DNA from: Trueperaceae bacterium | Lineage (GTDB): Bacteria > Deinococcota > Deinococci > Deinococcales > Trueperaceae | Assembly: GCA_019454765.1 (NCBI GenBank) | Contig: JACFNR010000005.1 | Coordinates: 1,768-40,123, forward strand | Length of the DNA: 38,356 nt | Direction: 5' to 3' | Shown: positions 5,503 through 37,581 of the stretch, piece by piece | How positions within the stretch are numbered: the stretch's first letter is position 1 | Layout of the letters: each line of letters starts with the position of its first letter | The notes under the pieces: generated by a model | The model's input: only the letters and a program-made list of their open reading frames with translations | The model's database searches: none | Told to the model about the DNA's origin: nothing | Position numbers and translations under genes: made by a program

Positions 5503-6464
5503 TCGTCCGCCTCCAGGGCGTCAAGAACGCTGTCGCCCGGCTGGAAGTCCGCGAAGGCGCTGCCGGTGCGCCGCGCCGCGAAGCGAGCCGCCACCGCGGC
5601 GTACACGTCGTTGGCGTACGCCACGTAGCCCGTCTCGTCGATGTAGTCGCGGTTCTCCGCCGCCAGGTAGAAGGCGACGAAGTCGGCGAGGCGGGGCTTG
5701 CTCGCCAGCGACCGGGTGCTCACGTAGATGAATAGCGGCCGCGAAAGGGGCGCGTAGGCGTTGGAGACGATGGTGGCCGCGGCGGGCGCCACGCAGCCGC
5801 CGCCGGCGTCGACCGCCACCGCCTTGAGCCGGCTCGAGTTGAGGGCGTAGTAGGCGTAGCCGAAGAAGCCGAGGGCCGCCGGGTCGCTCTCCACGCCCAG
5901 CACGAGCACGTTGTCGTCCTCGCTCGGGAAGTAGTCGGTGCGGATGGCGCCCGCCTCGCCCGTGACGGCGTGCGTGAAGAAGTCGAAGGTGCCGCTGTCG
6001 GCGCCGGGACCGTAGAGCGTGATGGCGGCGTCCGGGAAGCCCGGCCGGACCTGGCGCCAGTTCGTGATGCTCGAACCGGGCTTCCAGATGGCTCGCAACT
6101 CGGGCACCGTCAGGCAGTCGACGAAGTCGTTGGCGGCGTTCACCACCACCGTGATCGCATCGGCCGCGACGGGCAGCTCGATCACGGCGATCCCGGCTCG
6201 GGCGCAGGCGGCGAGCTCGCTGGGCCGCACGACGCGGCTCGCGTCGGCGACGTCCACCTCGCCGGCACAGAGCTTCGAGAGTCCGCCGCCCGTGCCCGAG
6301 AAGGCGACGGCCACGGGCGAGCGCGTCTCGATGGTGAACTCCTCGGCCATGGCGAGCGAGATGGGGTACACCGTGGAGGAGCCGTCCACGCGGATCATCC
6401 CCTGCGCGGCCGCCAGGCCGGCGAGGGCGAGCGCCGCGACGAGGGCCTTCGGTCCGCTAACCAC
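5499..6464 (-). CDS. pstS: phosphate-binding protein PstS
   Basis: Periplasmic receptor that hands phosphate to PstCA. It has a signal peptide (about 1-20, hydrophobic, ending LAAAQG), then the PstS_2-type fold with [34 protein letters not shown], a [13 protein letters not shown] anion-binding segment and LGFFGYAYY. There is no lipobox Cys in the signal peptide. The frame is open to a GTG at 6470, but GGAGG at 6474-6470 lies 5 nt before the GTG at 6464, which is therefore preferred (321 residues). It heads pstSCAB and is divergent from hutU. No PhoU gene or recognisable Pho box is seen in the 104-nt gap. Confidence 0.95.
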
Positions 6465-6530
6465 CTCCACCTCCCGCGGCGAGCGTAGCCGACATACGTC
6501 ATCGCCAGGTCATTAGCCCCCTCGAGGCGT

Positions 6531-19755: not shown

Positions 19756-20712
19756 ATGAAGGAGCGGCGCGCGAGGGTCCTCGAGCTCGTGGCGGAAGCC
19801 TACATCGCCACGGCGCACCCCGTCGCGTCGTCTCACATCGCCGCGCAGCTCGAGGTCAGTCCCGCCACCGTGCGCTACGACTTCGGCTCCCTCGAAGACG
19901 CCGGGCTGTTGCAGCAGCCGCACACCTCCGCCGGCCGCATCCCCACCGTGCTCGGTTTCAGGACGTACGCCGCCGGCTTCCTTCCCCCCAAGCCGCTGGC
20001 GGCCCCGCAGCGGGCGCGCCTCGACGAGCGGTTGAAGGGCGCAGTGGGCGACGACCTCTTCAACCTCGCCTCCCGCTTGGCGGCCGAGTTGTCCGGTTAC
20101 GCCGTCACGCTGCGGCTACCCGCCGACGCCACCATGAACATCCTCGAGATCCACCTCTCGCCCCTCAGCGCCAGCCGGATGTTGGCCGTGGTGGTGCTCG
20201 AGAACGGCCTCGTGCGCCAGCTCGGGGTGACCGTCGACCCCATCCCGACCGACGACGTCATCGACGACGCGGAGCGGAACCTGCGTCAGCTGTCGCAACC
20301 GGTCGGAGAGGTGCCGGCCGCCCTCCTGGACATCGCCAAGCGCGCGGGGGCGGAGCTGAGCCGGACGTTGCAGGCGCTCGCGGCGGCGTGGAGCGATCTC
20401 CACCCCCCGCGCGTGTTCCGGGAGGGCATCGGGCGTCTCCTGGCGGAGCCGGAGGGGGCGGACCCGGCCTTCGTGCGCTCCGCGCTCGAGCAGCTGGAGG
20501 AGGACGCCCCGGCCACCGACGACGCCAGCCTCACCCTGGAACTCGACGACCGGGTGGCGCGGCTCTGCGCCGCTTTCGCCCTCGGCCGGACGACGGGGCA
20601 GCTGACGCTGGTCGGACCGGCCCGCATGCGTTACGGCGAAGCCTTCTCGGTGGCCCAGGGGCTGGCGCGCGCGCTCGAGCGACCGCACGCCCACGGGGCG
20701 GTCAGCGGCTGA
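19756..20712 (+). CDS. hrcA: heat-inducible transcription repressor HrcA
   Basis: Represses chaperone operons by binding CIRCE, with GroEL as co-regulator in studied bacteria. The N-terminal winged helix includes ARVLELVAEAYIATAHPVAS, SPATVRYDFGSLEDAGLL and the hallmark PHTSAGRIPT. The GAF-like core contains LEIHLSPLSASRMLAVVVLENG. It has 318 residues, slightly shorter than the ~340 typical. It is not next to grpE/dnaK here, so its targets are elsewhere. Confidence 0.9.
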   Translation: MKERRARVLELVAEAYIATAHPVASSHIAAQLEVSPATVRYDFGSLEDAGLLQQPHTSAGRIPTVLGFRTYAAGFLPPKPLAAPQRARLDERLKGAVGDDLFNLASRLAAELSGYAVTLRLPADATMNILEIHLSPLSASRMLAVVVLENGLVRQLGVTVDPIPTDDVIDDAERNLRQLSQPVGEVPAALLDIAKRAGAELSRTLQALAAAWSDLHPPRVFREGIGRLLAEPEGADPAFVRSALEQLEEDAPATDDASLTLELDDRVARLCAAFALGRTTGQLTLVGPARMRYGEAFSVAQGLARALERPHAHGAVSG

Positions 20713-20830: not shown

Positions 20831-21703
20831 ATGCCTAACGACGTCTACCGGTACACGCATGCGGCGCTCTCCGCCCTCGTCTCGCCACGGGTGGCACACT
20901 CCATACTGGAAGACGCCCTGAAGACCAAGAGCCAGACCAGCGACACCATCACCGTGGGGGCCATGCGCCACCTACTGGCGGGCGCCGTCCGCAAGGAGCT
21001 CGCCCGGACGTTGCCGCGGGCCGGGTTGACGAGCACCCTCAAGCGCCTGGCGGACGAGCTGGCGGCGCACCCCGACCTCGGCTCGAGCCAACCCACTCCC
21101 GTGGCCAACGCCCTGATAGCGGAGGCCGACGCCGAACACGCGCTCGACGCCCTCACGGCCGAGCGGGCCGTCGTCGTGCCGCCGCAGCCTGTCTCCGCGA
21201 CGGCCCAACCGGGCGGCTCGTCGCCGCGGTCGGGAGTCCCGGCCATCCAAGGCCTGAACGTCGGCGCCGCCACCGTCCTGGAGCGGCCCGTCGGGCGCCT
21301 GAGCGGGCGGGCGTTGCATGGGGACGGGCGGCCAGCGCGCCGACCCGCCCCTCCCCCGCCCCCCGGCAAGATCGTGCCGCGCCTGGTCGAGCGCGCGCAG
21401 CAGGTGGCGCTCAAGCTGTTCGGCGACATCGAGAGCGTCCGGCAGGTCGTCGTGGTCAGGCGCCAAGCCGTCGTCCTGGAGCGCGGCGAGGGCATCGACG
21501 CCGCCGCCCTGCCCGGCCTGGTAGTTTCGTCTCGTCACCTGTTGGCGCGCGCTGGAGAGCTGCGCGCCCTGTCGGTGGAGCGCGCCGGCGGCGTGCTCTT
21601 CCTCTTCCCGTTCGGCGAGGACACGGTCGTCGTCGTCACGTCACCCAACGTCAACATCGGTGCCGTCCTGAACGCGCGCGCCGCTCTCGAGGAGGCTGCA
21701 TGA
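20831..21703 (+). CDS. roadblock/LC7-like domain protein with novel N-terminal domain
   Basis: No named family recognised. Residues ~195-287 have the pattern of bacterial roadblock/LC7 domains: a helix, a hydrophobic strand VVVVRRQAVVLERGEG, the ALPGLVVSSRHLLARAGEL helix, LSVERAGGVLFLFPFGEDTVVVVT and the closing NVNIGAVLNAR. Roadblock proteins usually dimerise and regulate small GTPases; no GTPase gene is in the window. Residues ~5-77 form a helical domain (VY...SPRV...L.DAL...SDT...LP) that aligns without gaps to the start of the large coiled-coil protein at 23729. A Pro/Ala linker (~115-180) joins them. It has a good ribosome site, and its stop overlaps the next ATG. Confidence 0.65.
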   Translation: MPNDVYRYTHAALSALVSPRVAHSILEDALKTKSQTSDTITVGAMRHLLAGAVRKELARTLPRAGLTSTLKRLADELAAHPDLGSSQPTPVANALIAEADAEHALDALTAERAVVVPPQPVSATAQPGGSSPRSGVPAIQGLNVGAATVLERPVGRLSGRALHGDGRPARRPAPPPPPGKIVPRLVERAQQVALKLFGDIESVRQVVVVRRQAVVLERGEGIDAAALPGLVVSSRHLLARAGELRALSVERAGGVLFLFPFGEDTVVVVTSPNVNIGAVLNARAALEEAA

Positions 21704-23679
21704 TCCGGCGTCAACTGACCCTTACCACCTGCGTGGTGGCCCTGCTCACGCTCCTGGCGGCAGCGTTCGCGCAGGACGACTCGGTTCTGCAGCGCTACGA
21801 CCTCGCGATCGAGAACCTCGAGGTGGCCACCGCCAGCGTTCCCCAGGACGGCGCCCAGGCGCGAGACGAGCTCGAGCGGGCGCTGAACGCCCTCCTCACC
21901 CTGTCGCGCGACGCCACGAGCACGAACCTCGTGCAGGCCATGGAGCGCACGTTCGAGAGGACGCGCGTGGCCGTCGACAACCAGAGCCGGACCGACATGG
22001 CGGTGCAGACGGCCGTCCTGGCCGGGGGCTTCAGTCGGCTCGTGATGGACTCCGCCTACCTGGTCGCCGGTAGTGGCGACCTGACGACGGCGAGGACGCG
22101 GCTACTCCACCTCGCGGACCGCCTCGGCTTCGCTCCGGCGGACGCGGGCGCCGTCACCGACGCCGCGACGGCTCCGGCGCTGCGGCTGGCGTTCGAGGCC
22201 GGCCTCGCCGACGCGGTCGCCGCCCGCCTCGCCACCGTCGACGACCTGGCCGCCACCGATCCCGACGCGGCCTACGTCGACCTGGCGAGCGCCTACGGGG
22301 CGTCACTGTTGGTGCAGGACTCGCCACGCATCGCCCCCTCGCTCAACCGCGACCTGGTGACCGCGGCGCAGGCGCTCGTCGCCCACGACGAGGCGGCGCT
22401 CGCGACCGCGACCGAGGCCGCCCGGAAGACCCTGGCCGACCTCGCCGCGGCCGCACGCGGCGCCGACGCCGGTGCCGCCGCCGGGGCCGCGCTCGAGCCG
22501 GACCAGGCCACCGCCCCGGCCCCGGTGGAGCTACCGACCGCAGCGACCCCCGCGAGCACCGAAGGCGCCGGTGGGACCCCGCAGGGAGATGCCGCCACCA
22601 GCTCGGGCGGAACGGCCGGTAGCGCCGCGGACGCGCCGGCCACGGCGGGAGCGGCCGAGCCAGTCGGTGCGCCCGCCGGCTTGGCAGACGCGAACGGCGC
22701 CCCGGCCGAAGCCGGCGTGGTCACCGCCCCCGAGCAGGCCGCGCCGGCCACCGCCCGCGACGAGGCCTCCATCCAGGAGGCCGTCGCCGCCCGACTCCTC
22801 GCCCTCGGCGAGGCGGCGGAGCGCGCCAAGTCCGAGGAGCTCACCCGGCAGCTCGTGGCCGCCGGCGTCGGCGCCGACGCGGCCCCGGCCGCCGCCAACC
22901 GCATGCTGGCGCGCGGCCACGACGACCTTGACGGGCTCCTGCGGGGGCTCGAGGCCCACAGCGCCCAGCTGACCGCCGCCGTCGCCCGCGGCGACAGGGA
23001 CGCGGCCACGGCCGCTTTGAGCCTGACGACGGACGTCTTCCGGCGCGACGTGGCCCCGCTCCTCGACCACGTCGATCCCCGGCTCGAGGCGTCGACGGAC
23101 GCGCTCCTCACGGAGCTCGCGGCCGCGCACCCCACGCAGGCCGACGCCGCCCTCGTCGCCGCTCGCACCGCGATGGTGCGCGGCGCGTTCGCCGGCGCGA
23201 CCCCCACGCTCGCCGACGAGGTCGAGGGCGGCGTCGCCCGCTACTGGTCCGGTCCGGCCCGCGACGCCGTGTTCCTGATCCTCGGGATCCTGGCCATCTT
23301 CCCCCTGGTCCTACTGAACATGGCGTTCGGCGGGAGCAACCGCAACTGGCGCCTCGTCGGCTGGGGCCTGTTCCTCCTCCTCGTTCCGGTCTTCTACCAG
23401 GCGGTCGTGGGCCTGGCCAACCTCCTCGGCGAGGTGGTCGACCTGAGTTGGCTTCCCGACCTGGCGCGCTGGTCGCTGCTCGGCGGCCTCACGGGCCAGG
23501 TCGCGTGGGTGCTTCTCGTGCTCGTGGCGCTCGTGCTGGCCATCGTCGGCCTGCGCGGCATCTGCTTGCAGTTCGGCCTGCTCGGCGGCGCCCGCAAGGG
23601 GGCGCAACCCAAGGCGACCGCGGTGCAACCCAAGGGCAGCACCGGCCACACCACCATCGATTGGGACGAGGAGTTCTGA
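21700..23679 (+). CDS. exported helical protein with C-terminal membrane domain, unknown function
   Basis: 659 residues, no family recognised. An N-terminal signal-like segment (about 1-25, ending AAAFAQ) is followed by an Ala-rich helical region (~26-255), a low-complexity Ala/Pro/Gly/Thr linker (~255-350) and a second helical region (~350-515). About three membrane segments follow (~523-543, 551-575, 598-618). The short tail is basic, then acidic, ending TIDWDEEF, and is probably cytoplasmic. The topology suggests a long periplasmic part anchored by a C-terminal bundle. It starts by ATGA overlap with the roadblock gene and is followed by the coiled-coil gene, so the three are likely made together. 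The tail could be the contact to cytoplasmic partners (inference). Confidence 0.6.
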   Translation: MIRRQLTLTTCVVALLTLLAAAFAQDDSVLQRYDLAIENLEVATASVPQDGAQARDELERALNALLTLSRDATSTNLVQAMERTFERTRVAVDNQSRTDMAVQTAVLAGGFSRLVMDSAYLVAGSGDLTTARTRLLHLADRLGFAPADAGAVTDAATAPALRLAFEAGLADAVAARLATVDDLAATDPDAAYVDLASAYGASLLVQDSPRIAPSLNRDLVTAAQALVAHDEAALATATEAARKTLADLAAAARGADAGAAAGAALEPDQATAPAPVELPTAATPASTEGAGGTPQGDAATSSGGTAGSAADAPATAGAAEPVGAPAGLADANGAPAEAGVVTAPEQAAPATARDEASIQEAVAARLLALGEAAERAKSEELTRQLVAAGVGADAAPAAANRMLARGHDDLDGLLRGLEAHSAQLTAAVARGDRDAATAALSLTTDVFRRDVAPLLDHVDPRLEASTDALLTELAAAHPTQADAALVAARTAMVRGAFAGATPTLADEVEGGVARYWSGPARDAVFLILGILAIFPLVLLNMAFGGSNRNWRLVGWGLFLLLVPVFYQAVVGLANLLGEVVDLSWLPDLARWSLLGGLTGQVAWVLLVLVALVLAIVGLRGICLQFGLLGGARKGAQPKATAVQPKGSTGHTTIDWDEEF

Positions 23680-23728
23680 ACATGATGCCCCGCGAGCGCC
23701 CGGGTAGGTGCGGGAGGTCAGGCGCCGG

Positions 23729-26494
23729 ATGAACGCCGCCGTCAGCCCCGTCTACCAGACCGCCGTCACGGAGCTCGAGGCCGTGCTCTCGCCGCGCATC
23801 GTCTCGCGGGCGCTCAAGGACGGGCTCCGGCAGCTGGGACGGTCGCCGGACACGGCGGACCTGATGGACATCGAGAAGGTCATGAAGTCCCAGGTCTACC
23901 GTCAGCTGCAGGTGCTGATGCCGGTGACCCAGGCGAAGGAGACCGTGGCCGGCATCCTCGACCGGCTGGCGACGTCCTCCGCCGGCGCCAGCACCCCGTC
24001 CGTGGCGGGCAGCGACGCCCTCAAGGTGCAGGCCAAGCGCCTCGCCGCCCTGCAGGCGGAGCTGAAGCCGTTCAACCTCTACTTCGAGTGGCCGGAGGTC
24101 CAGAAGCTGCGCGCCCAGGTTCAGCTCGCCGAGGCCGACGCCGCCGCCGGCCGCGAGGCGCCCGGGCTACTCGCCGACGGCGAGGCTCAGCTCGAGCTGG
24201 TCAAACAGAAGCTAGAGGACCAGCTCGTGCTGCAGGCTCGCGACCTGGCGGTAGTGCAGGAGGCGCTCGAGCAGGTGCGGGAGGTCGGCGGCAACAGCGT
24301 TAGGCGCCTCGAGACCCTCGTCAACCAGGTGGCCGCCGCGCAGGCGCAGCGCCACCTCGTCCAGGCCGAGCTCGAGCGCGCCCACCGCCTCGCCCGCGAG
24401 TTGCGCAAGGCGCTGCCCGTCGAGGCGGCAGCGGCCACCCAACCCCCGGCCGCGACCGACAGCGAGACGCTCGACCCGGCGGCCCGCGACGCGACCACGG
24501 GCGCGGAGCCCACGGTCGCGCGCGGCGACGCCACGGCGCCCGAGCCCGAGCCGGCGGCGCCGCCGGCGGCGCCGGACGGCGGCGTGGCGGGGCGCAGCCA
24601 CCGCCTCGACATCGACGCGGAGCTCCACGACCTACGCACGCTCGAGAGCGACTACGCCAACGTGTTCGAGTACCTGCCGGAGCTGGCCGTCCGGATGGCG
24701 GAGCTGAGGTCCGAGCTGGAGGCGGAGCGCTCGGTCGCCCAGGTGCTGGAGGGGATGCGCGCCGACCTCGACGCCACGACGCGCGCCGTGCGCGAGGACC
24801 TGCGCGAGGAGCTCGAGGAGATGAGCGCCAGGGTCGCGGCCATGCGGTCGGACGTGGCGACCGCCGAGCTGGACCAGGCGCTGCGGGTGACCCTCGGCAT
24901 CCTGGAGTCGAGCCTGCCCAACCGCACCGACGTGGAGCACGTGCGGCGCCTGCACCAGTTGGCGCTGGAGCAGGAGGGCGTCCTGCAGCACGAGGACGAA
25001 CAGCGGGCCGCCGGCCTCGCCGCGCAGTCCGAGCTGCTGGAGCGGCTCGAGTCGACGCTCCTGCGCCGCGGCGACGACGCCGACGTGCGCGAGGAGGTGG
25101 ACAGGCTCCGCGCCGAGTTCGACCACCTGCGCCTCGCCCATGAGCAGAACACCGTCGCTCACGACCTCGTGTCCGCGGCGCGGCAGGCCGAGGAGGACCT
25201 CGCCAGGAGCCTGGCGGCACGCGCCACCGAGGCCTCCGAGAAGCTGGTGGCGCAGTTGACGGCGCTCCGCGCTCAGCTCGAACGCCTGCCGGTCACGGCC
25301 ACGCTCACGGACCGCGCCGACACCCTCCGCCACGAGGTCGAGCGCCTCCTGCAGGAGCAGGAGAGCGCCTCCGCCGTCGCCGGGCTGCTGCTCGACGACG
25401 ACCCCGGACCGCCCACCCTGGTCGACGACGGCGAGCTGGCGTCGCTGACGACCGAGGTCGACGCCCTTCGCCAGGAACTGACCACCAGCCTCCGCAGCCG
25501 CCTCATGCGGCTGGCCGAGGAGGCCACGGCGCTGGGGAACCACCCGCTGATCGAGCACATCCAGCGCGCGCTGCTCGGGCTCGAGCTCGGCCGCTACCCC
25601 GACCTGGCGCAGTTCCAGGCGGCGCTCCGGCAGGAACGCGAGGCGCAGCGGCAGGAGCAGCTCGACGAGCTCAAGCGGTTGGCGCAGGCGGCGGCACATT
25701 TCGAGGGGGACGGCCGCGGCGCGGAGCTGAAGGCGCTCCTGGCCGACGCGCGCGAGCGGATCCAGGCGGGCGAGCCGGCACAGACGCTCAAGCGCGCCGG
25801 CGAGCTCCTGCGCGAGCTCGAGGAGCAGGCCGACGCGGTGCTGGCCGGCATGCCGACGCGGCTCGACGCCGCCCTGGCAGAGCTCGAGCCGGTCTCCAAG
25901 CTGAATAGCGACGGCGTGGTGACGGTGCGTCGGATCCTCCACCACCTGGACTCGCAACGGGACGCTCTGCCGCGCCTGTCGCGCGGGCTTCAGTTGCAGC
26001 TGGAGCAGGCCCTTGGCCAGGCCGAGCGCATGCTGGTGGAACTCCGCGGCGAGTACGAGGCCACGCGCCTGGTGGCCGACCAGGTGGTGAGCGGTGGCCT
26101 GCTCGACGGGGTCCTGGGGCTGTTCCGGACGGCCGACCCACCGCCGGCGGAGCCCGAGACGCCAACCTTCTCCCGCCAGGCGGTCCTCGACGAGTACCTG
26201 AGCGAGAAGTACGTGAAGGGGGGCGCGTGGATGGACGCCGCCGGCGCCCTGCTGGCCGGCACAGACGACACGTTGCCTGCCGGCGCCACCGATCCCAGCC
26301 CCGTGCCCCTGGCCGGCGCCACGGCCGCCTGCTGGCAAGCCGACGACGAGGCGCTCATCGTCGCCTGGCTGCCCAACGGCGAGTGGCTGGCGTTGCGGCT
26401 CGGCGACCCCGACCTGGCCGGGCTGATGGTCAACCGGGTGAGGCGCGACGCCGCGACCTGGCCCCTCGCGGGGGCGGCGCCGGGCGACGGGTGA
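23729..26494 (+). CDS. large coiled-coil protein sharing the N-terminal domain of the roadblock protein
   Basis: 921 residues, no family recognised. Residues 8-80 are the domain shared with the 20831 gene product (VYQ...LSPRI...LKDGL...DT...MP). Then come helical segments (~98-235), an Ala/Pro/Glu linker (~235-295), long heptad-like coiled coil rich in Glu, Leu, Arg and Gln (~300-800), a short LLDGVLGLFR segment, and a compact C-terminal region (~880-905, ALIVAWLPNGEWLALRLG) that looks beta-rich. No signal peptide or membrane segment, so it is probably cytoplasmic. The ATG at 23729 has GGGAGG 11 nt upstream and matches the domain start; GTG 23708 would add 7 residues. Its stop overlaps tsaE. 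Confidence 0.6.
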   Translation: MNAAVSPVYQTAVTELEAVLSPRIVSRALKDGLRQLGRSPDTADLMDIEKVMKSQVYRQLQVLMPVTQAKETVAGILDRLATSSAGASTPSVAGSDALKVQAKRLAALQAELKPFNLYFEWPEVQKLRAQVQLAEADAAAGREAPGLLADGEAQLELVKQKLEDQLVLQARDLAVVQEALEQVREVGGNSVRRLETLVNQVAAAQAQRHLVQAELERAHRLARELRKALPVEAAAATQPPAATDSETLDPAARDATTGAEPTVARGDATAPEPEPAAPPAAPDGGVAGRSHRLDIDAELHDLRTLESDYANVFEYLPELAVRMAELRSELEAERSVAQVLEGMRADLDATTRAVREDLREELEEMSARVAAMRSDVATAELDQALRVTLGILESSLPNRTDVEHVRRLHQLALEQEGVLQHEDEQRAAGLAAQSELLERLESTLLRRGDDADVREEVDRLRAEFDHLRLAHEQNTVAHDLVSAARQAEEDLARSLAARATEASEKLVAQLTALRAQLERLPVTATLTDRADTLRHEVERLLQEQESASAVAGLLLDDDPGPPTLVDDGELASLTTEVDALRQELTTSLRSRLMRLAEEATALGNHPLIEHIQRALLGLELGRYPDLAQFQAALRQEREAQRQEQLDELKRLAQAAAHFEGDGRGAELKALLADARERIQAGEPAQTLKRAGELLRELEEQADAVLAGMPTRLDAALAELEPVSKLNSDGVVTVRRILHHLDSQRDALPRLSRGLQLQLEQALGQAERMLVELRGEYEATRLVADQVVSGGLLDGVLGLFRTADPPPAEPETPTFSRQAVLDEYLSEKYVKGGAWMDAAGALLAGTDDTLPAGATDPSPVPLAGATAACWQADDEALIVAWLPNGEWLALRLGDPDLAGLMVNRVRRDAATWPLAGAAPGDG

Positions 26495-26961
26495 GCGCCG
26501 GGACCGCCCTCCCGCCGGCCGGCGCCCTCCCCCTCGCCTCCCTCGACGCCACCACCGAGCTGGCGCGCGCCGCCCTCGCCGCCCTGCCGAACGGCAGCCT
26601 GCTGGTCCTGTCCGGGCCGCTGGGCGTGGGCAAGACCACGTTCACCCAGGCGTTGGCGTCGCTACTCGGCGTGGAGGCGCCCGTGAACAGCCCCACCTAC
26701 ACGCTGGTGCACGAGTACCCCTCGCCCGCGGGGACCCTCGTGCACATGGACGCCTACCGGTTGGGTGGCGCCGCGCCGTTGGCCGGGACCATGCTCGACG
26801 ACTACCTCGAGCGGGCGCGGCTCGTGGTCGTCGAGTGGGGCGAGGGCCTGCTCGACGCCTACCCCGAGGCGTGGTGGCTCGAGTTCGGCTTCGGCGCCGC
26901 CGACGACGGCGAGGGGAGCCGGGTGCGGTGGGCCCGCTGGGGCAGGCGGCCCGTCACGTGA
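26491..26961 (+). CDS. tsaE: tRNA threonylcarbamoyladenosine biosynthesis ATPase TsaE
   Basis: ATPase of the TsaB-TsaD-TsaE complex that makes the t6A modification at position 37 of ANN-decoding tRNAs. Walker A GPLGVGKTTFTQALA, the NSPTYTLVHEY segment, HMDAYRL and LVVVEWGEGLLDAYPE are family hallmarks. It has 156 residues, usual length. The GTG start overlaps the previous stop, and its stop overlaps tsaB as GTGA. Confidence 0.92.
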   Translation: MSAGTALPPAGALPLASLDATTELARAALAALPNGSLLVLSGPLGVGKTTFTQALASLLGVEAPVNSPTYTLVHEYPSPAGTLVHMDAYRLGGAAPLAGTMLDDYLERARLVVVEWGEGLLDAYPEAWWLEFGFGAADDGEGSRVRWARWGRRPVT

Positions 26962-28720: not shown

Positions 28721-30529
28721 GTGGCGGCGCAGCCGCGCGCCGCGCGTCTCGTTCGCGGGGAGCGGCCGCGCCCGGCGCCGGCGCAGGTGCTTGTCGCGGC
28801 GGCCTGCCTGACGGTGGCGCTCTGCATGGGCACGGTCGGGCACGCCCAGCGCGGCGCGGCGCCCGACATGCCCGTCGAGCAGGTGGTGGTGGGCGACAAG
28901 GGCCACGCAGTGACCGCCGGCCCCGGCAACCGGCTGGAGCGGTTCCCCATCGAGGTCGTGGCCGTCCAGTGGGAGGGCGGCGCCGGCTTCCCGCTGGTGT
29001 TGGTGCGGGCCGGTGGCGAGTTCATCGCCGCCGCCGGCGGCGTGGCCGCCGGCATGAGCGGTAGCCCCGTCTACGTCTCCACCGAGGCGGGCGACGCGCT
29101 GCTCGGCGCCATCGGTTACGTCTTCCCGCGCGCCGATCACGACCTCGCGCTGGTGACCCCGATAGCCGTGATGCGGCGGGCCCTGCCCGGGCGCATGCCG
29201 CCGTTCGTCGACGTCCCCGGGGTGGGCCGGGCCGTGCCGGCGGCCACCCCCGTCCTCATGACCGGCGTGTCCACGCGCGCGGCCGCGCTGTTGGCGCCGC
29301 TCTTCAGGGACGAGCGCGTGGCGCCGTTCGTGGCGCAGGGGGGCGGCACCGGACCGGGTTCGCCGAGCGGGGCGCCCGGCGCGGCCGACGAGTTGGGGCC
29401 CGGCTCGGCGCTCGCCGTGGCCCTCGCCTGGGGCGACGTCAACATCCAGGCCGTGGGGACCGTCACCGCGGTGGAGGACGGGGAGCTGCTCGCCTTCGGC
29501 CACCCCTTCCTCGGCCTCGGCCGCGTGGCCTACCCCGTCGTCCCGGCGGAGGTCACGGCCATCGTGGCCAGCGCCGACGTGCCGTTCAAGCTCGCCAACG
29601 CGGGCGGGCCCATCCTCGGCACCGTGGAGCAAGACAGGCCGGGCGCCATCGCCGGACGCCTCGGCGTCGAGCCGCCCGCCATCCTGGTCGAACTCAGCCT
29701 GCTGGGGATCGGCCCCAGCACCAGCTACAGCTTCAGTGTCCCCGCCGACGACCGCCTCTACCCCCCCGTCGTCGGCACCGGGGTGCTGGCGCTGCTCGAC
29801 CGCTACCTGAGCGCGACCACCGGGGGCTACGCCGAGGTGGCGTGGGAGATCGCGTTGGGGAGCGGCGAGCGCGTGAACGTGCTCGAGCAGACGAACGACG
29901 CCACCGACATCGGCTACCGGGCGGCGGTCCTCGCCTTCTCGCCGCTGGCGCTCCTCGCCGACAACCGGTTCGGGGAGAGCGACGTGACGCGGGTCTCCCT
30001 CGCCATCCGGCTCGACGAGCGCCAGCGCGTGGCCACTCTGGAGGAGGCCGTCGCGGAGGAGACGACGGTCGCGGCCGGCGAGAACGCCATCGTCCACCTG
30101 CGGCTGCAGCCCTACCGCCAGCCCGCCATCGTGCGCAACGTGAGCGTGCCCATCCCAGCAGACATGGAGGGGGAACTGACCCTGCTGATCCGCGGCGGCG
30201 ACGTGCCGCGCGACACGGGCGACGCTCACGTGGACGAACAGGAGGTCGACAGGCCGCGCAGCTACCCCGAGCTCCTCGACGCCCTGCGCCAGCAGGTGCA
30301 GGCCAGCGAGCTGGTCGTGGAGGTGGTGACACCGGACGGTGACGTGCTGCGCCTGCTGCGAACCCCGTTCGCGTTCGTCGTGGACGGCAACGAGCGCGTC
30401 ACCCTCGAGGTGGTCGTCGCCGAGGACACGGACGAGGGCACCGGGGCCGACGGCGCCGAGAACGTTGGCGAGGACGGCGATGCTGCCGGCGGGGCCGGGG
30501 AGGAGGGGGCAGAGGATGACGAGCGGTGA
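28721..30529 (+). CDS. exported SpoIVB-type (peptidase family S55) domain protein
   Basis: 602 residues. The N-terminal membrane or signal segment is at ~22-42 (AAACLTVALCMGTVGHAQ). The S55-like domain has KGHAVTAGPGNRLERFPIEV and the Ser motif GVAAGMSGSPVY (~108-118), then ITPI-like LVTPIAVMRRALPG. A second conserved block reads ELLAFGHPFLGLGRVAYP. A long beta-rich region (~340-570) and an acidic Glu/Asp/Gly tail follow. Known SpoIVB proteases act in sporulation signalling, but here the neighbours are mreB and lpxD, so a periplasmic envelope role is more likely (inference). Whether it is an active protease is not settled. It overlaps lpxD by 14 nt. Confidence 0.75.
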   Translation: MAAQPRAARLVRGERPRPAPAQVLVAAACLTVALCMGTVGHAQRGAAPDMPVEQVVVGDKGHAVTAGPGNRLERFPIEVVAVQWEGGAGFPLVLVRAGGEFIAAAGGVAAGMSGSPVYVSTEAGDALLGAIGYVFPRADHDLALVTPIAVMRRALPGRMPPFVDVPGVGRAVPAATPVLMTGVSTRAAALLAPLFRDERVAPFVAQGGGTGPGSPSGAPGAADELGPGSALAVALAWGDVNIQAVGTVTAVEDGELLAFGHPFLGLGRVAYPVVPAEVTAIVASADVPFKLANAGGPILGTVEQDRPGAIAGRLGVEPPAILVELSLLGIGPSTSYSFSVPADDRLYPPVVGTGVLALLDRYLSATTGGYAEVAWEIALGSGERVNVLEQTNDATDIGYRAAVLAFSPLALLADNRFGESDVTRVSLAIRLDERQRVATLEEAVAEETTVAAGENAIVHLRLQPYRQPAIVRNVSVPIPADMEGELTLLIRGGDVPRDTGDAHVDEQEVDRPRSYPELLDALRQQVQASELVVEVVTPDGDVLRLLRTPFAFVVDGNERVTLEVVVAEDTDEGTGADGAENVGEDGDAAGGAGEEGAEDDER

Positions 30530-31580
30530 ACGCCTCACGGTCGGCGAGCTGCTGGAGGCGCTGGGCGCGCGGCTGAGCCGCGGCGCGGTCGAAGACCTCG
30601 CCCGGCCGCTGGAACGCCTCTGCGACCGCGGCATGCTGGCGCTGCCCGACGCGCGGCCGGCGGTCAGCGCCTGCGTGATGGCCGCCGCGGACGCGGCGGC
30701 AGGGCCGCCGGAGCCGGCCCCGGCACTCCTGGTCGTGCCCGCCGGCACCCCCTGGCTGGACGGCTACCCCGGCGCGGCCGCCGAGGTCGCCGACGCGCGC
30801 CTCGCCCTGGCACTGGCGAGCGCCTTGTTCGTCGACCCGCACCTGCCCCCGCCGGGCGTTCACCCGCGGGCCGTCGTCCACCACACGGCCGTGCTGGGCG
30901 AAGGGGTGCGCGTCGACGCCGCGGCCGTCGTGGCGGCCGACGCCGTGGTCGGCGCCGGTAGTTGCGTGGGGGCGGGCGCCGTGGTCGGCGCCGGCGCGCG
31001 CCTCGGCGTCGACTGCCGCCTTCACCCCGGCGTGACGCTCTACCCGGGCGTGGTCCTCGGCGACAGGGTCACGCTTCACGCCGGCAGCGTCATCGGCGCC
31101 GACGGGTTCGGGTACGCCGCCGGGAGGACGGGCGTGACGAAGATCCACCACCTGGGCGGCGTGGTGCTGGGGGACGACGTCGAGGTCGGGGCCAACACCT
31201 GCATCGATCGCGGCACCCTCGCGGACACGGTGGTGGGGGCGCGCACCAAGATCGACAACGCCTGCCAGGTCGGTCACAACGTGCGGATAGGCTCCGACAC
31301 CCTCATCGCGGGCTTGACGGGCATAGGGGGCAGCGCGCGCGTTGGCTCGGGCGTGATCATCGGCGGGGCGGTGGCGGTCAGCGACCACGTGACCATCCAC
31401 GACGGCGCGCGCGTTGCCGGGCGCAGCGGCGTCACCAAGGACGTCCCCGCCGGCGCGACCTGGGCCGGCTTCCCCGCCAGGCCGCACCGGCAGTTCGTGC
31501 GGGAGCTCTACCTGCTCGGCAAGCTCGAGGAGTGGTGGCGCCGCACCAAAGCGGGCGGCGAGGGCGCGGGGCCCGCCTGA
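30516..31580 (+). CDS. lpxD: UDP-3-O-acylglucosamine N-acyltransferase
   Basis: Third step of lipid A synthesis: adds the second acyl chain, on nitrogen, from acyl-ACP. The left-handed beta-helix of hexapeptide repeats spans ~115-320. The LpxD signatures are SVIGADGFGYA, a DDVEVGANTCIDRGT segment and KIDNACQVGHNV, with the presumed catalytic His at 254 (E. coli His239). The N-terminal domain (1-110) is divergent. It has 354 residues. ATG 30516 fits the start of the N-terminal domain and overlaps the upstream gene by 14 nt; the frame is open further upstream but without family similarity. The stop shares one base with the lpxC ATG. Confidence 0.92.
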   Translation: MTSGERLTVGELLEALGARLSRGAVEDLARPLERLCDRGMLALPDARPAVSACVMAAADAAAGPPEPAPALLVVPAGTPWLDGYPGAAAEVADARLALALASALFVDPHLPPPGVHPRAVVHHTAVLGEGVRVDAAAVVAADAVVGAGSCVGAGAVVGAGARLGVDCRLHPGVTLYPGVVLGDRVTLHAGSVIGADGFGYAAGRTGVTKIHHLGGVVLGDDVEVGANTCIDRGTLADTVVGARTKIDNACQVGHNVRIGSDTLIAGLTGIGGSARVGSGVIIGGAVAVSDHVTIHDGARVAGRSGVTKDVPAGATWAGFPARPHRQFVRELYLLGKLEEWWRRTKAGGEGAGPA

Positions 31581-32353
31581 TGGTCCGCGTGGCGGGGCGG
31601 GCCGTCCATAGCGGCCTCACCTGCAGCGTGACGCTGCACCGGGTCGGCGGCCCCACCCGCTTCCGGCGGGGATACGTCGAGGTGCCCGCCGACCTGGCGC
31701 ACGTCATCGGCGCCGAGCGCGCCACGAGCCTGGGCGCCGACGGCGCCAAGGTACACATGGTGGAGCACCTGCTGGCGGCGTTGCGGGTGGCCGGCTTCTT
31801 CGCGGGCGTGCTCGTGGAGGCCAGCGCCGACGAGCTCCCGATCCTCGACGGCTCCGCCGCCCCGTGGGCCGCCGCCGTGGCGGAACTGGGCGAGCCGCCG
31901 CCGGCGCCGGCGCCACTCGTGATGACAGCGCCCGTTAGCGTGTCGGTCGGCGGAGCGCGGGGGCGAGTGATGCCCGGCCGCGAGTCGCTCGCCTACGAGA
32001 TCGAGTTCGCTCACCCCGCCATCGGGGTCCAGGCGTGGGCCGGGGGGCCGGGCGCCTACGGCGAGCTCCTCGAGGCGCGCACGTTCGGGTTCCTGAGCGA
32101 CCGCGAGGCGCTGCTCGCGCGCGGGCTCGCCCTTGGGGCCGATGAGGAGCATGTTATCGTCTTCGCAATGGACGGGCCGTCGCGTCCCCTTCGCCACGCG
32201 CAGGAGCCGGTACGTCACAAGGCCCTCGACGCCCTCGGCGACCTGGCGCTGCTGGGTCGCCCGCTCGAGGGGGCCGTCAGCATCCACCGCGGTTCACACG
32301 CCCTACACCACGAGCTGGCGCGCGCCGCCCTCCGCCACGTGGGAGCGGAGTGA
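31580..32353 (+). CDS. lpxC: UDP-3-O-acyl-N-acetylglucosamine deacetylase
   Basis: Zinc-dependent, committed step of lipid A synthesis. The metal-site and catalytic residues are all present: VEHLLAAL (Glu62, His63), VRHKALDALGDL (His213, Asp217) and RGSHALHH (His240). Other matches are ELPILDGSAAPW, ARTFGF and RGLALGADEEHVIVF. At 257 residues it is shorter than E. coli LpxC (305), with trimmed loops in the first domain, but no key residue is missing. It is coupled to lpxD by TGATG. Confidence 0.95.
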   Translation: MVRVAGRAVHSGLTCSVTLHRVGGPTRFRRGYVEVPADLAHVIGAERATSLGADGAKVHMVEHLLAALRVAGFFAGVLVEASADELPILDGSAAPWAAAVAELGEPPPAPAPLVMTAPVSVSVGGARGRVMPGRESLAYEIEFAHPAIGVQAWAGGPGAYGELLEARTFGFLSDREALLARGLALGADEEHVIVFAMDGPSRPLRHAQEPVRHKALDALGDLALLGRPLEGAVSIHRGSHALHHELARAALRHVGAE

Positions 32354-33336
32354 GCACCGGGGGCGCCCATCCGCAACCGATCCGCGTCGCCGTCGTCGGC
32401 GCGGGCGTCATGGGTCGGCATCACGCCACCAACTACATGACGCTGCCCCACGTCACGCTCGTCGCCATGGTGGACGTCGACGCCGCCAAGCGGACGCAGG
32501 CGCACCAGACCTTCAGGTGCGCCACCTACGCGACCGTCCAGGAGATGCTGACGCGCGAGGCCATCGACGCCGTCAGCGTGGCGGTGCCGACGAGCCTCCA
32601 CTTCGCCGTCACCCGCGCCCTCCTCGACGCGGGCGTGCACGTGTTGGTCGAGAAGCCGGTCGCCACCGAGGTGGGGCAGGCCCGCGCGCTGGCGCAGCTG
32701 TCGCGGCAACGGGCGCTCGTCTTGCAGGTCGGGCACATCACGCGCTTCTACGGCGCCGTGCAGATGCTGGCGCGCGAGGTGAGGGAGCCGTACCTGATCG
32801 AGGCGCGGCGCCTATCGCCCTCGCAGCGGGTCAAGGACGTCGGGGTGGTGCTCGACCTGATGATCCACGACATCGACATCCTGTTGGGCCTCGTCGCCAG
32901 CCGCGTGACTGACGTTGCGGCCGCCGGGCTCCCTCTGAACGGCTCCCCGCTCGAGGACGTGGCCGCCACCCAGATCACGTTCGAGAACGGCTGCGTCGCG
33001 CGCCTCCTCGCCAGCCGCGTCTCCCCCGACCCGGAACGCACCATGCTCATCGCCGAGCGCGACAAGACGGTCAGGGTGGACTTCGGCAAGGAACCCTACA
33101 GCGAGGTGCAGTTCTTCCGGACGCCGGATGCCGCCAGGAGCGCCGGCCACGTCAGCCTCGACCGCCACCTGGTTCACGACGAGAACCCGCTGCGCAAGGA
33201 GCTCGAGCACTTCATCGCCCGCATCGAGCGTAAGGCCGACCCGATCGGGACGCTCGACGACGACATGCGCTCGCTGGAACTGGCCACAGACATCCTCGCC
33301 GCCATGCGTGCGGCGCGCCCCGTGCCGGTACACTGA
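32350..33336 (+). CDS. Gfo/Idh/MocA-family NAD(P)-dependent oxidoreductase
   Basis: 328 residues. The N-terminal Rossmann fold has VAVVGAGVMGRHHATNY, then VAVPTSLH, the family motif VLVEKPVA (EKP) and the C-terminal domain with DLMIHDIDILLGL, the usual HDxD active-site region. The substrate cannot be read from sequence; its place between lpxC and fabZ points to a nucleotide sugar or lipid A precursor. GnnA, which helps make the 3-amino sugar of some lipid A types, belongs to this superfamily, but its aminotransferase partner GnnB is absent from the window. The GTG start overlaps the lpxC stop. Confidence 0.85.
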   Translation: MSTGGAHPQPIRVAVVGAGVMGRHHATNYMTLPHVTLVAMVDVDAAKRTQAHQTFRCATYATVQEMLTREAIDAVSVAVPTSLHFAVTRALLDAGVHVLVEKPVATEVGQARALAQLSRQRALVLQVGHITRFYGAVQMLAREVREPYLIEARRLSPSQRVKDVGVVLDLMIHDIDILLGLVASRVTDVAAAGLPLNGSPLEDVAATQITFENGCVARLLASRVSPDPERTMLIAERDKTVRVDFGKEPYSEVQFFRTPDAARSAGHVSLDRHLVHDENPLRKELEHFIARIERKADPIGTLDDDMRSLELATDILAAMRAARPVPVH

Positions 33337-33342
33337 CGTGCC

Positions 33343-33762
33343 ATGGTAGACGTCCGCGGCATCCTCCCCCACCGCTACCCGTTCCTGCTCGTCGACGCCT
33401 TCGTGAGCCAGGACGGCGACGACTTCGAGTGCCTCAAGAACGTGTCGCACAACGAGCCCTTCTTCGTGGGGCACTTCCCGACCGAGCCCGTCATGCCGGG
33501 GGTGCTCGTCATCGAGGCGCTGGCGCAGGCGGCGGCGGTGGGCCTGGCCGTGCGCGAGGGGAGGCAGGGGGAGCCCGGCGTCGGTTACCTCACCGGCGTC
33601 GACGGGGCCAGGTTCCGGCGCAAGGTCGTACCGGGGGACCAGCTCCGCCTGACCGGCACCATCGTCCTGTTCCGCCGTGGTCTCTGCAAGGTCGACGCGC
33701 GCGCCCTGGTCGGCGCCGAGGTGGTCGCCGAGGCGCAGCTGTCGTTCATGTACGCCCGCTGA
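33343..33762 (+). CDS. fabZ: 3-hydroxyacyl-ACP dehydratase FabZ
   Basis: Hot-dog-fold dehydratase of fatty acid elongation that balances hydroxyacyl-ACP between membrane lipids and lipid A. It has ILPHRYPFLLVD (catalytic His), FFVGHFPTEPVMPGVLVIEALAQ (catalytic Glu) and LTGVDGARFRRKVVPGD. It has 139 residues, normal. It starts 6 nt after the oxidoreductase and overlaps lpxA by ATGA, the usual fabZ-lpxA pairing of diderm bacteria. Confidence 0.96.
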   Translation: MVDVRGILPHRYPFLLVDAFVSQDGDDFECLKNVSHNEPFFVGHFPTEPVMPGVLVIEALAQAAAVGLAVREGRQGEPGVGYLTGVDGARFRRKVVPGDQLRLTGTIVLFRRGLCKVDARALVGAEVVAEAQLSFMYAR

Positions 33763-34541
33763 TGACTGCGGACGCCGGGCGGGCGCCGTCGGCGCACGTC
33801 CACCCTTCCGCCCGCCTCGCGCCGGACGTGACCGTCGGGCCGAACGTGGTCATCGAGGCCGACGTCGAGGTCGGCGCCGGCACGCGCCTCCTAGCCGGGA
33901 CCGTGCTCCACGCCGGCAGCCGGGTGGGCGCCCGCTGCACGTTGGGGCCGTACGCGGTGGTGGGGGGCGAGCCGATGGACTCCGCGTTCAAGGGTGAGTC
34001 GACACTGGCCGTGGTGGAGGACGACGTGACGCTGCGCGACTTCGTGACCGTCCACCGGGCCACGGGCGAGGGCAACGAGACGCGGGTAGGCAGGGGTTCC
34101 CTGGTCATGAGCTACGCGCACGTGTCGCACAACGTGCGGGTGGGGCCCAACGTGACGATCACGACGGCGGCGCAGCTCGGCGGTCACGTGGTCGTCGGGC
34201 GCCACGCCGTGCTCGGCTCGGGCGCGCTGCTGCACCAGTACGTGCGGGTGGGCGCCTTCGCCATGTTCGGCGCGGCGAGCGCCGCCAACCAGGACGTGCT
34301 CCCATTCAGCATGGCGCGCGGCAACCCGGTGCGTCACTACCGCCTGAACGGGGTGGGTCTGAAGCGCAACGGCATCGTGGGCGAACGGTACGCAGCGCTG
34401 GAGCGCGCCCTGCGCTTCGTGCGCCGGCGCGACCTCGGCGCCCTGGAGGAGCTCGCGAGCACCAGCGCCGACGCCCGCGAACTGCTCGAGTTCCTGGCCG
34501 GCAGCAGGCGCGGCGTGGCGCGCTTCGTGAGCGGGGGATGA
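33762..34541 (+). CDS. lpxA: UDP-N-acetylglucosamine O-acyltransferase
   Basis: First step of lipid A synthesis: transfers a hydroxyacyl chain from ACP to UDP-GlcNAc. Hexapeptide beta-helix from ~10 to 190, with the family segments GEPMDSAFKGE, the AHVSHNVRVG region carrying the catalytic His (123, matching E. coli His125), LGGHVVVGRHAVLGSGALLHQ and VGLKRNGI, then an all-helical C-terminal domain. It has 259 residues, normal. The start overlaps fabZ and the stop overlaps the LpxB-like gene. Confidence 0.95.
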   Translation: MTADAGRAPSAHVHPSARLAPDVTVGPNVVIEADVEVGAGTRLLAGTVLHAGSRVGARCTLGPYAVVGGEPMDSAFKGESTLAVVEDDVTLRDFVTVHRATGEGNETRVGRGSLVMSYAHVSHNVRVGPNVTITTAAQLGGHVVVGRHAVLGSGALLHQYVRVGAFAMFGAASAANQDVLPFSMARGNPVRHYRLNGVGLKRNGIVGERYAALERALRFVRRRDLGALEELASTSADARELLEFLAGSRRGVARFVSGG

Positions 34542-35839
34542 AGGGCGCCGTCGGCGGAGGCCCCTACCAGGTCGTCCTCGTCAGCAACGGCCCGGGCGAG
34601 CTATACACCTGGGTGCGCCCGGTGCTCGACGCCCTCAGGCGGCGCGACCCCTTAGTCAGGGTGGCCATCAGTCTCGTGCCCTGTCAGTTCGCCGGCGGCA
34701 ACGAGGCGGCCATCGCCCGCACGTTCGCGCCGGACCTCGTCACCACGCCGGCGCAGTACCTGCGCGCCGCCGCCGTCGGCGCGGCGCCGGAGGGACTGAG
34801 CGCCGAGCCGGGGCGCGGCGTTGTGATCGGCCTCGGCGGCAACGCGGCGTTGACCGTGGCGCTCGGGCGCCGCCTCGGGCACCCCGCCTACCGTTACAGC
34901 TTCGAGCCGCACTGGCAGCGCGGCCTGACGGCGCTGCTCGTGCCGGACGAGCGGGTGCGCACGCGCGCGGTGAGGGCCGGGGCGCCCGCCGGCGCGGTGC
35001 GGGTGGTCGGCAACCTCGTCGCCGACGCGGTCGACGAGGCGACGCCGGCGGCCTCTCCGGGGTCGCCGCACGTGCTGCTCTTCGCGGGGAGCCGCGACGC
35101 GTTCGCCGTCCACCTCATCCCGCTCCTGATCGCCGTCGTCGACCGCTTGCGGGCGGCCCTGCCCGGCGCCAGGTTCGTGTGGCCCGTCAGCCGCCTGCTG
35201 CGGCCCGACACCATCGCCGCCGGCGTGGCCGGCAGGCACGCGGCCACCCTCGGCGGGGTGGCCGGCAGCCTGGTGGACGACGGGCCGACCCGCGCCGTGA
35301 TCACGCCCGGGGGCGGCAGGCTCGAGCTCGTGCCCGAGGAGGAACGCTACGCGCACATGCGCGCCGCCGACCTCGCCCTGACCATCCCGGGCACCAACAC
35401 GCTCGAGTTGGGGATAGCGGGCGTCCCGTCACTTGTGCTCCTCCCCCTCAACCAACCGGAGCTGATCCCGCTAGAGGGCGCGGGGCACTGGCTCGGCCTG
35501 GTGCCGCTCGTCGGCAAGTACCTCAAGCGGCACGCCGTGCGGATGTTCGTGAACGGCCTCAAGGTGCCCGTCTCGCTCCCCAACCGCCTGAGCGGCGAGG
35601 AGTTGATGGTCGAGCTGAGCGGCCATGTGGACCCGGCCCGGGTGGCGGAGGCCGTGCTGCGACTGCTCGCCGACCCGGCCGACCTGGCGGCGCGACGCTC
35701 CCGCTTGCACGCGACGATGCCGCGCCGCGGCGCGGCCGCCGCGCTGCTCGACGCCGTCCTGCCGGCCGCCTCCGGGCGGGCGCGAGCAGACGGTGGCGCG
35801 ACGCTCCCGACCGCGGCGGCCGGGAGCGGCCGGACGTGA
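34538..35839 (+). CDS. LpxB-like glycosyltransferase (lipid-A-disaccharide synthase-related)
   Basis: 433 residues, GT-B fold. The N-terminus VVLVSNGPGELYTWVRPVLDAL replaces the GExSGD start of classical LpxB. The C-terminal half has ADLALTIPGTNTLELGIAGVPSLVLLPL, equivalent to the SGTATLE region of LpxB. It resembles the lipid-A-disaccharide-synthase-related proteins of cyanobacteria more than E. coli LpxB. Position after lpxA suggests it joins two acylated glucosamine units or glycosylates a related lipid (inference). Start and stop overlap the neighbours by 4 nt. Confidence 0.75.
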   Translation: MKGAVGGGPYQVVLVSNGPGELYTWVRPVLDALRRRDPLVRVAISLVPCQFAGGNEAAIARTFAPDLVTTPAQYLRAAAVGAAPEGLSAEPGRGVVIGLGGNAALTVALGRRLGHPAYRYSFEPHWQRGLTALLVPDERVRTRAVRAGAPAGAVRVVGNLVADAVDEATPAASPGSPHVLLFAGSRDAFAVHLIPLLIAVVDRLRAALPGARFVWPVSRLLRPDTIAAGVAGRHAATLGGVAGSLVDDGPTRAVITPGGGRLELVPEEERYAHMRAADLALTIPGTNTLELGIAGVPSLVLLPLNQPELIPLEGAGHWLGLVPLVGKYLKRHAVRMFVNGLKVPVSLPNRLSGEELMVELSGHVDPARVAEAVLRLLADPADLAARRSRLHATMPRRGAAAALLDAVLPAASGRARADGGATLPTAAAGSGRT

Positions 35840-37581
35840 GCGCGACCGCCGGCGGCGGCCGCGCCCGGGCGCGGCCGACCGCGCTCCTGTGGCCCCGCTC
35901 GACCAGCGCCTGGCTGGGGGTGGCCGCGGCGCTCGTCGGGGCAGGGCTGCGGGTCGCCATCGTCCCCCTGTTCGTGGCGCCCCTGTTCGACGACGTGTTG
36001 CAGGCGCACGACCTGAGCGCCCTGCCGCGCGTGCTGGGCACCGCCGGCGCCGTGGCCCTCGGCGGCAGCCTCGCCCTCTGGGTGCAGGACGCGGCGCTCG
36101 GCCGCGCCGCCGCCCACCTGGGCGCCACGTGGCGCGACAGGCTCTACGCCGATCTCCTTGCCTCCCCTCCCGGCAGCCTGCCCGGGACGAGCGGCGCCCT
36201 GGCCGGCCGGGTCGTGAGCGACCTGCGCGAGGTCGAGACGTACTTCCGGTACGGGCTGGGCACCCTGGTGGCGGAGAGCGCGACGCTGCTCTTCATACTG
36301 GCGCTGCTCGTGAGGGCGGACGCGACGGCGGCGCTGGCCCTCTTCGCGCTCGCCCTGCCGGGCGCCCTGGTCCTGCGCCTCGTCGGGCGGCGCTTGGAGG
36401 GTGCCACGCGCGGCGCGCTCGAGGGCACAGAGGAGGTGGCGCACCACCTCCAGGAGGGCCTGAAGCATCACGAGCTCGTCCGGGCCTTCGGCGCCGTGGG
36501 CGCGATGCGCGAACGTCTCGGGGCGGCCAACCGCCGGACCGCGCGCGCGACGGCCAGGCGCAGCCTGATCGCCGGCCTCCAGACGCCGCTCACGCAGCTG
36601 TTCGTCTTCACCGCCATCGGCGTGCTGGTCGTCATACTGGTCGGCGCCGTCGCGCGCGACGCGGCGACCGTCGGCGACGTGACCGCGTTCCTCACGCTGG
36701 TGGCGCTGGCAGCGACCCCCACTCAGCTGCTCCCGCAGGGGTACGCCATGTACCGACAGGCGCGCGCCGCCGCCCGGCGCCTGCACGCGCTCCAGGGCGC
36801 CGCGCACTTGTCGCCTACCACGGGCGCGCACCCGCCGGCTGCGGCAGGCGACGGCCCGAGCGAAGGCGACGCGACCCCCGCCCCCACTAGCTTCACGGTG
36901 GCGCGCGCCCACGCTCAACCCGGCGAGGCGCCCCTACTGGCGCTTCACGGCGTGGCCTTCGGCTACGACGCCGCCAGGCCAGTCCTCGCCGGCGTCGACC
37001 TCAGCTTCCCACGGCGCGGCCTCGTCGTCGTGGGTGGACCCAGCGGCAGCGGCAAGACGACCCTGTTGCGGCTGCTGCTGCGCTTCGCGCGCCCGACGGC
37101 AGGGCGGGTGACGCTCGACGGCGTCGACCTTGCCGACGTCGACGAGGCCGCCCTGCGGAGCCGGCTCGCGTACGTGCCGCAGGGGCACGAGCTCCTGTCG
37201 GGGGCGTTGAGGGACGCCCTCGCGATGGGCCGGGTGGCCGAGGACGGCGAGCTGTGGTGGGCGCTGGAGGCCGTGGGCATGGCGGGCGCGGTGCGAGCGT
37301 TGCCGGCCGGCTTGGCGACGCGGCTCGCCGAGGACGGCGGCGGTTTCTCTGGCGGCCAACGTCAGCGGCTCGCCGTCGCCCGCGCCCTGCTCGGCCGCCC
37401 CGACGCCGTGCTCCTCGACGAACCGACCTCCAGTCTCGACGACGGCAGCGAGGCGGAGATCAACGCACTCCTCGCCCGGCTCGCCAAGGAGCGGCTCGTG
37501 CTCGCGGTGACGCACCGCCCGGCCCTCGCCGAGCGGGCGGACGTGCTCGTGCTCGCCGACGGCGTGGGGGCGCCGGCGTGA
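35836..37581 (+). CDS. MsbA-like ABC exporter (fused membrane and ATPase domains)
   Basis: 581 residues. The membrane domain (~20-325) has about six helices. A hydrophilic Pro/Ala/Glu linker (~330-365) leads to the ATPase domain with Walker A GGPSGSGKTTLL, Q-loop YVPQGHELLSG, signature FSGGQRQRLAVARALL, Walker B AVLLDEPTSSLD and H-loop VTHRP. This is the homodimeric exporter layout, and its place next to lpxA/lpxB points to flipping of a lipid A-like product. The GTG at 35836 overlaps the upstream stop as GTGA; the frame is open further upstream but that part lies inside the LpxB-like gene. Confidence 0.85.
   Translation: MSATAGGGRARARPTALLWPRSTSAWLGVAAALVGAGLRVAIVPLFVAPLFDDVLQAHDLSALPRVLGTAGAVALGGSLALWVQDAALGRAAAHLGATWRDRLYADLLASPPGSLPGTSGALAGRVVSDLREVETYFRYGLGTLVAESATLLFILALLVRADATAALALFALALPGALVLRLVGRRLEGATRGALEGTEEVAHHLQEGLKHHELVRAFGAVGAMRERLGAANRRTARATARRSLIAGLQTPLTQLFVFTAIGVLVVILVGAVARDAATVGDVTAFLTLVALAATPTQLLPQGYAMYRQARAAARRLHALQGAAHLSPTTGAHPPAAAGDGPSEGDATPAPTSFTVARAHAQPGEAPLLALHGVAFGYDAARPVLAGVDLSFPRRGLVVVGGPSGSGKTTLLRLLLRFARPTAGRVTLDGVDLADVDEAALRSRLAYVPQGHELLSGALRDALAMGRVAEDGELWWALEAVGMAGAVRALPAGLATRLAEDGGGFSGGQRQRLAVARALLGRPDAVLLDEPTSSLDDGSEAEINALLARLAKERLVLAVTHRPALAERADVLVLADGVGAPA

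Follow-up and report, generated by a model that had tools for sequence, protein, structure and literature searches.

A three-gene module of twin roadblock proteins and a membrane protein that shares its presence and absence with MglA in near-complete Deinococcota genomes

Three neighbouring genes of a Trueperaceae bacterium, here called A, B and C, form a module that is co-inherited across the Deinococcota and for which we found no family or literature description, as a first-pass annotation of this DNA had suspected. That annotation had also raised a link to small GTPases, which roadblock domains usually control. This link has now become concrete: C and MglA share presence and absence in near-complete genomes. 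In the reading that we favour, with a probability of about 0.5, ABC serves as a membrane-anchored scaffold of roadblock proteins through which MglA/MglB polarity is positioned or regulated; it would then be a candidate membrane component of the switch that marks one cell pole as the front. What is new here is the B family and the A-B-C combination, neither of which has a named match in Pfam, NCBIfam, the PDB or the literature searched; the roadblock domains are those of a known superfamily.

The window, i.e., the whole stretch of 38,356 nucleotides that was analysed, lies on contig C5 of a 2.9 Mb genome (97% complete; Trueperaceae, Deinococcota). The module and its immediate neighbours are arranged as follows:

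19756-20712, forward strand: hrcA, the upstream neighbour, kept in Trueperaceae (f1) and part of family f3
20831-21703, forward strand: gene A, 290 aa; four-helix N-terminal domain, linker and C-terminal roadblock
21700-23679, forward strand: gene B, 659 aa; two helical periplasmic domains, three transmembrane (TM) helices and a conserved tail, predicted to be cytoplasmic
23729-26494, forward strand: gene C, 921 aa from ATG; A-like N-terminal domain, helical domain, coiled coil and C-terminal roadblock
26491-26961, forward strand: tsaE, the downstream neighbour

The tight packing described earlier is borne out. A and B meet in an ATGA overlap, and B is separated from C by 49 nt, or by 28 nt if C uses an alternative upstream GTG start at 23708, which would give a protein of 928 aa. 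The stop of C in turn overlaps the presumed tsaE start (GTGA, 26491-26494); the tsaE frame has no NCBIfam match and is named from reading its sequence and from its place before tsaB. Because A, B and C are all conserved across a phylum, chance open reading frames are ruled out. A promoter and terminator scan returned nothing above chance. In the window the module is accompanied by hrcA, tsaE, tsaB, mreB, an S55-like gene and lpx genes. The S55-like gene (28721-30529) encodes a SpoIVB/S55-like protein below the Pfam cut-off; it directly follows mreB in Trueperaceae and is also conserved in genomes without A and C. After these two genes comes a lipid A-type cluster (30339-37581) with hexapeptide/LpxD-like, LpxC, GnnA-like oxidoreductase, LpxA, LpxB-like and MsbA-like ABC transporter genes. 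Parts of this cluster are retained at other Trueperaceae loci, and lipopolysaccharide synthesis in Deinococcota may merit separate study.

Of the 111 Deinococcota genomes searched with profiles, 101 have A, 107 have B and 106 have C; none of this sample was recognised as Deinococcus. Scanning named genomes with one C peptide pattern gave 38 loci, titled as Deinococcota lineages apart from one titled only 'bacterium', and Deinococcus was not among these titles. Whenever A and B were found on the same contig they adjoin, and this also holds in Thermus- and Meiothermus-like genomes. Judged by the refuting condition named at the outset, homologues that lie apart in other genomes, the outcome is divided: C is unlinked in g25 (Meiothermus-like), g20 (Thermus-like), g28 and g26, but all three genes still co-occur there. 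The neighbourhood survey found no gene besides A, B and C that is common to most family groups, so that gene neighbourhood gives no function for ABC.

The domains of A and C are:

20831-21070, forward strand: N-terminal four-helix domain of A (about aa 1-80), homologous to the start of C (hhalign of family alignments, 99.1% probability, E 4.7e-19)
21362-21694, forward strand: roadblock domain of A (about aa 178-288), from a profile match, a homologue model and structure matches
23741-24004, forward strand: N-terminal domain of C (about aa 5-92), common to A
24026-24433, forward strand: most conserved helical region of C (aa 100-235), with the motif YFEWPEVQ
24626-26128, forward strand: long helical/coiled-coil region of C (about aa 300-800), with a hydrophobic periodicity peak at 3.45-3.5
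26171-26473, forward strand: C-terminal roadblock of C (about aa 815-915), from a profile match to the PDB and hhalign to A

Judged from their sequences, A and C are soluble paralogues with a common N-terminal domain and a terminal roadblock, and C corresponds to A with some 500 residues of predicted coiled coil placed between the two domains. The first ~85 residues of A match the start of C directly (BLASTP, E 1e-7), the C-terminal roadblocks align with 96.4% probability in hhalign of the family alignments (E 1.3e-9), and mismatched domain pairs of A and C gave no hhalign match. In trees of either domain all A fall on one side and all C on the other (support 0.98 and 0.99), so the split between the two genes probably predates the divergence of the sampled families. 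The end domains of C are separated by the conserved helical region, a linker rich in Pro and a stretch of about 500 residues with coiled-coil periodicity. C does contain a long coiled coil, but this covers only ~500 of its 921 residues rather than the more than 900 first attributed to it. An SMC-type identity for C was rejected, since its ends are an A-like domain and a roadblock and no ATPase family matches. In the Pfam/NCBIfam scan MutS_III gave a weak, chance-like match in three of 32 C homologues.

Both roadblocks are divergent and fall below the Pfam cut-off. For A, PF03259 scores E=0.25 (11.5 bits against a cut-off of 23), and 3/42 A homologues reach E 0.01 or better, the best at 4.5e-4. 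The roadblock previously read in A finds firm support in the AlphaFold model of a short A homologue (mean pLDDT 90), in which a four-helix domain is joined to a domain that has the strand and helix order of a roadblock and matches solved roadblocks at Z 11-13. The structures matched include archaeal roadblocks, LAMTOR subunits and MglB (M. xanthus 6hjm, Z 12.2; T. thermophilus 1j3w, Z 11.2). The profiles of A and C independently match the same PDB roadblocks at their C-termini, namely 7f8m (for C at profile positions 803-912, E 2e-4) and Streptomyces CvnB5 (3leq). On the evidence of the model the C-terminal domain of A belongs to the roadblock/LC7 superfamily, as does, by profile comparison, that of C. 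The single roadblock protein of the first-pass annotation is thus correct for A and one short for the module, since C also ends in a roadblock and starts with A's domain.

The N-terminal domain appears in other contexts as well: a third protein (up to 791 aa; locus L178 in genome G041, 4150-6522, minus strand) starts with the domain found in A and C and has no roadblock visible by eye. The window's own genome (G000) contains a further pair of adjacent small roadblock-like frames on contig C6 at about 87205 (locus L182), separate from mglAB and from ABC.

B is divided as follows:

21700-21774, forward strand: putative signal peptide (about aa 1-25), from hydropathy
21781-22485, forward strand: periplasmic helical domain 1 (aa 28-262), from a model with pLDDT mostly above 90
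22486-22752, forward strand: disordered Ala/Pro-rich linker between helical domains 1 and 2
22753-23247, forward strand: periplasmic helical domain 2 (aa 352-516), from the model
23254-23574, forward strand: three TM helices (aa 519-543, 548-577 and 597-625)
23656-23676, forward strand: C-terminal tail (I/V)(D/E)WDEEF (aa 653-659)

As had been noticed at the outset, the middle protein combines a membrane anchor with a large periplasmic part. From hydropathy and a model with mean pLDDT 84, in which the tail is disordered, B is predicted to be an inner-membrane protein with periplasmic domains, and the combination of a signal peptide and three TM helices would place the tail in the cytoplasm. 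The TM region carries the conserved motifs FGG.N..W and GLRGI..QFG. The WDEEF tail is near-invariant in 48/50 aligned B homologues, and the linker before it is variable; among the 47-48 aligned homologues whose sequence extends into these columns, W and D are conserved in 100%, the two E in 94% and 92%, and F in 96%. Searching plasmids with B gave no match, and no relatives turned up in a viral-contig scan. YfdX gave a weak, chance-like match in three of 50 B homologues (best E 9e-4) in the Pfam/NCBIfam scan.

Natural losses bear on the function of this tail. G011, G031 and G023 keep the whole run EVE-hrcA-B-tsaE-tsaB-mreB-S55 but have neither A nor C. B is still in place (loci L173, L174 and L177), and in each of these A/C-less genomes it has no WDEEF tail. 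In G028 all three genes are gone and tsaE follows hrcA within ~70 nt, and in G007 and G008 moaD and moaE, named by reading the sequence, occupy the ABC site. None of these six ABC-reduced genomes has lost HrcA, TsaE, TsaB, MreB or S55. In the genus g13 a separate A gene was not found, B and C are short, and the tail is present as WDEDF. These cases are most simply explained if a partner maintains the tail, and if this partner is C or something for which C is required; the genus g13, with C and the tail in the absence of A, points to C. However, since MglA and MglB are lost in the same genomes, either may instead be the partner, and the tail could bind MglA, MglB or another factor lost alongside.

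The association with MglA was read from the 85 genomes with a completeness of 90% or more and a contamination of 5% or less. Five of them lack C and five lack MglA, and the five are identical (G007, G008, G011, G023 and G028); MglA is present in every C-bearing genome of at least 90% completeness. If genomes are treated as independent, the probability of this coincidence is 3e-8, but the genomes are related and the GuaA tree requires at least two separate joint losses (g3 with g4, and g7), so that the evidence equals two joint events, all in one family. The losing lineages include small genomes, which may have dropped many genes, and the control genes compared are few. The same five genomes and G031 have no PF03259 roadblocks, a group that includes MglB. 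Two incomplete genomes lack them as well, and so does G025, in which MglA and C are both kept. G011, G023 and G031 still have PilM, with matches at E<1e-30, whereas it has no clear match in the ABC-less G007, G008 and G028, nor in G048, where ABC and MglA are present. Because PilM is kept in the first three, the module follows MglA and not simply type IV pili; a dependence on type IV pili was discarded, as the distribution of PilM does not match that of ABC.

The most serious alternative, which we consider possible but clearly less probable than the proposed scaffold, is that ABC organises the envelope or the cell in a job of its own, does not act on MglA, and uses its roadblocks only to dimerise. 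ABC and mglAB would then have been lost together when g3/g4 and g7 gave up a common lifestyle trait, e.g., surface motility. This would agree with the small number of independent joint losses, with the divergence of the A and C roadblocks, and with the lack of a clear PilM in G007, G008 and G028. It would also agree with the gene order, as mglA and an adjoining roadblock gene lie on contig C66 of the host genome, unlinked to A and C on C5. However, the three genomes that keep PilM without A, C and MglA argue that pilus loss alone does not explain the pattern, and the retention of the neighbouring genes in all ABC-reduced genomes also speaks against it.

Two other functions were considered. That B is a periplasmic sensor, with A and C as its cytoplasmic signalling adaptors and an output other than a GTPase, appears improbable. 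The helical domains of B do align with the sensor bundles TorS (3o1j, Z 11.2), Adeh_2942 (4k0d, Z 10.0) and McpS (Foldseek E 0.6, prob 0.47), but such scores are within the chance range for helical bundles, with unrelated four-helix bundles scoring alike, and Foldseek gave no match for B at E below 0.001. The Foldseek and VIA matches of B thus look like helical-bundle background, and no other gene is conserved beside the module across families. Still less probable is a morphogenesis or cell-division module acting with MreB, an idea that comes from the hrcA-ABC-tsaE-tsaB-mreB neighbourhood: mreB lies downstream of ABC in Trueperaceae, but it stays put when A and C are lost and was not seen at the ABC loci of other families.

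MglB is a roadblock protein and a known regulator of MglA. A and C resemble the MglA-MglB system of M. xanthus and T. thermophilus in their roadblock fold, and in near-complete genomes C is present or absent together with MglA. What sets them apart is their additional N-terminal domain and the long coiled coil of C. Neither gene lies next to mglA, an adjacency here taken as a mark of the MglB family, and their proposed membrane partner B has no counterpart named in the MglA/MglB literature searched. In M. xanthus a second roadblock protein, the MglB paralogue MglC, is described as working with MglB in polarity (PMC7949163, PMC9481161). Its structure (7ct3) matches the A roadblock at Z 10.2, a likeness at the domain level only. 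MglC is not known to have the N-terminal domain, a coiled coil or a membrane partner in common with A and C. A likeness in working principle is offered by the eukaryotic Ragulator/LAMTOR complex, in which the p18 anchor is described as wrapping the MP1-p14 roadblock heterodimer at the membrane (PMC5680233). A roadblock pair and a membrane anchor would likewise be combined in ABC, and the A roadblock matches the p14/MP1 chains at Z ~12; in contrast, B is multi-pass with periplasmic domains, and no Rag GTPase was seen. The Cvn conservons and Mfp of Actinomycetota also join a roadblock to a small Ras-like GTPase, and the structure of the conservon protein CvnB5 is matched by both the A and the C profile. 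The conservon operon is reported to encode a histidine kinase-like protein, a roadblock, a DUF protein and a GTPase (PMC13343842), whereas no such kinase, DUF or GTPase gene was seen beside ABC.

In the proposed scaffold, the cytoplasmic tail of B would dock onto C, perhaps also onto A, and the roadblocks of A and C would pair with each other or with MglB. The paired roadblocks may then bring MglA to a membrane site, hold it there or control it; this site would most likely be a cell pole. The coiled coil of C could set the reach of the complex or cluster it, and the periplasmic domains of B could either link the site to the wall or detect a signal from the envelope. What the system would finally control is type IV pilus polarity, as described for Thermus MglA/MglB. 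Specifically, a review reports that deletion of mglA or mglB in T. thermophilus leaves pilus formation intact and affects the localisation of pili at one pole (PMC12024867), and another account calls the mechanism of the monopolar pilus bias unclear (PMC12393216). Of the cell-organising or envelope-spanning complex imagined in the first-pass annotation, a cell-organising role at the inner membrane is plausible; B is predicted to sit in the inner membrane, and we see no sign that the whole envelope is spanned.

The module was not found in titles and abstracts of the literature on bacterial roadblocks and MglA. More speculatively, and held only tentatively, ABC might be a Ragulator-like bacterial scaffold in which the TM anchor relays a periplasmic signal or wall landmark to the roadblock pair, and so places MglA; it would then provide polarity and directional sensing in Deinococcota in place of chemosensory pathways. 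Thermus is a workhorse for studies of pili and competence, and the module offers such studies three specific genes and one candidate docking motif. If the proposed function is true, a membrane-anchored twin-roadblock design would join the few Ras-like GTPase systems known from bacteria.
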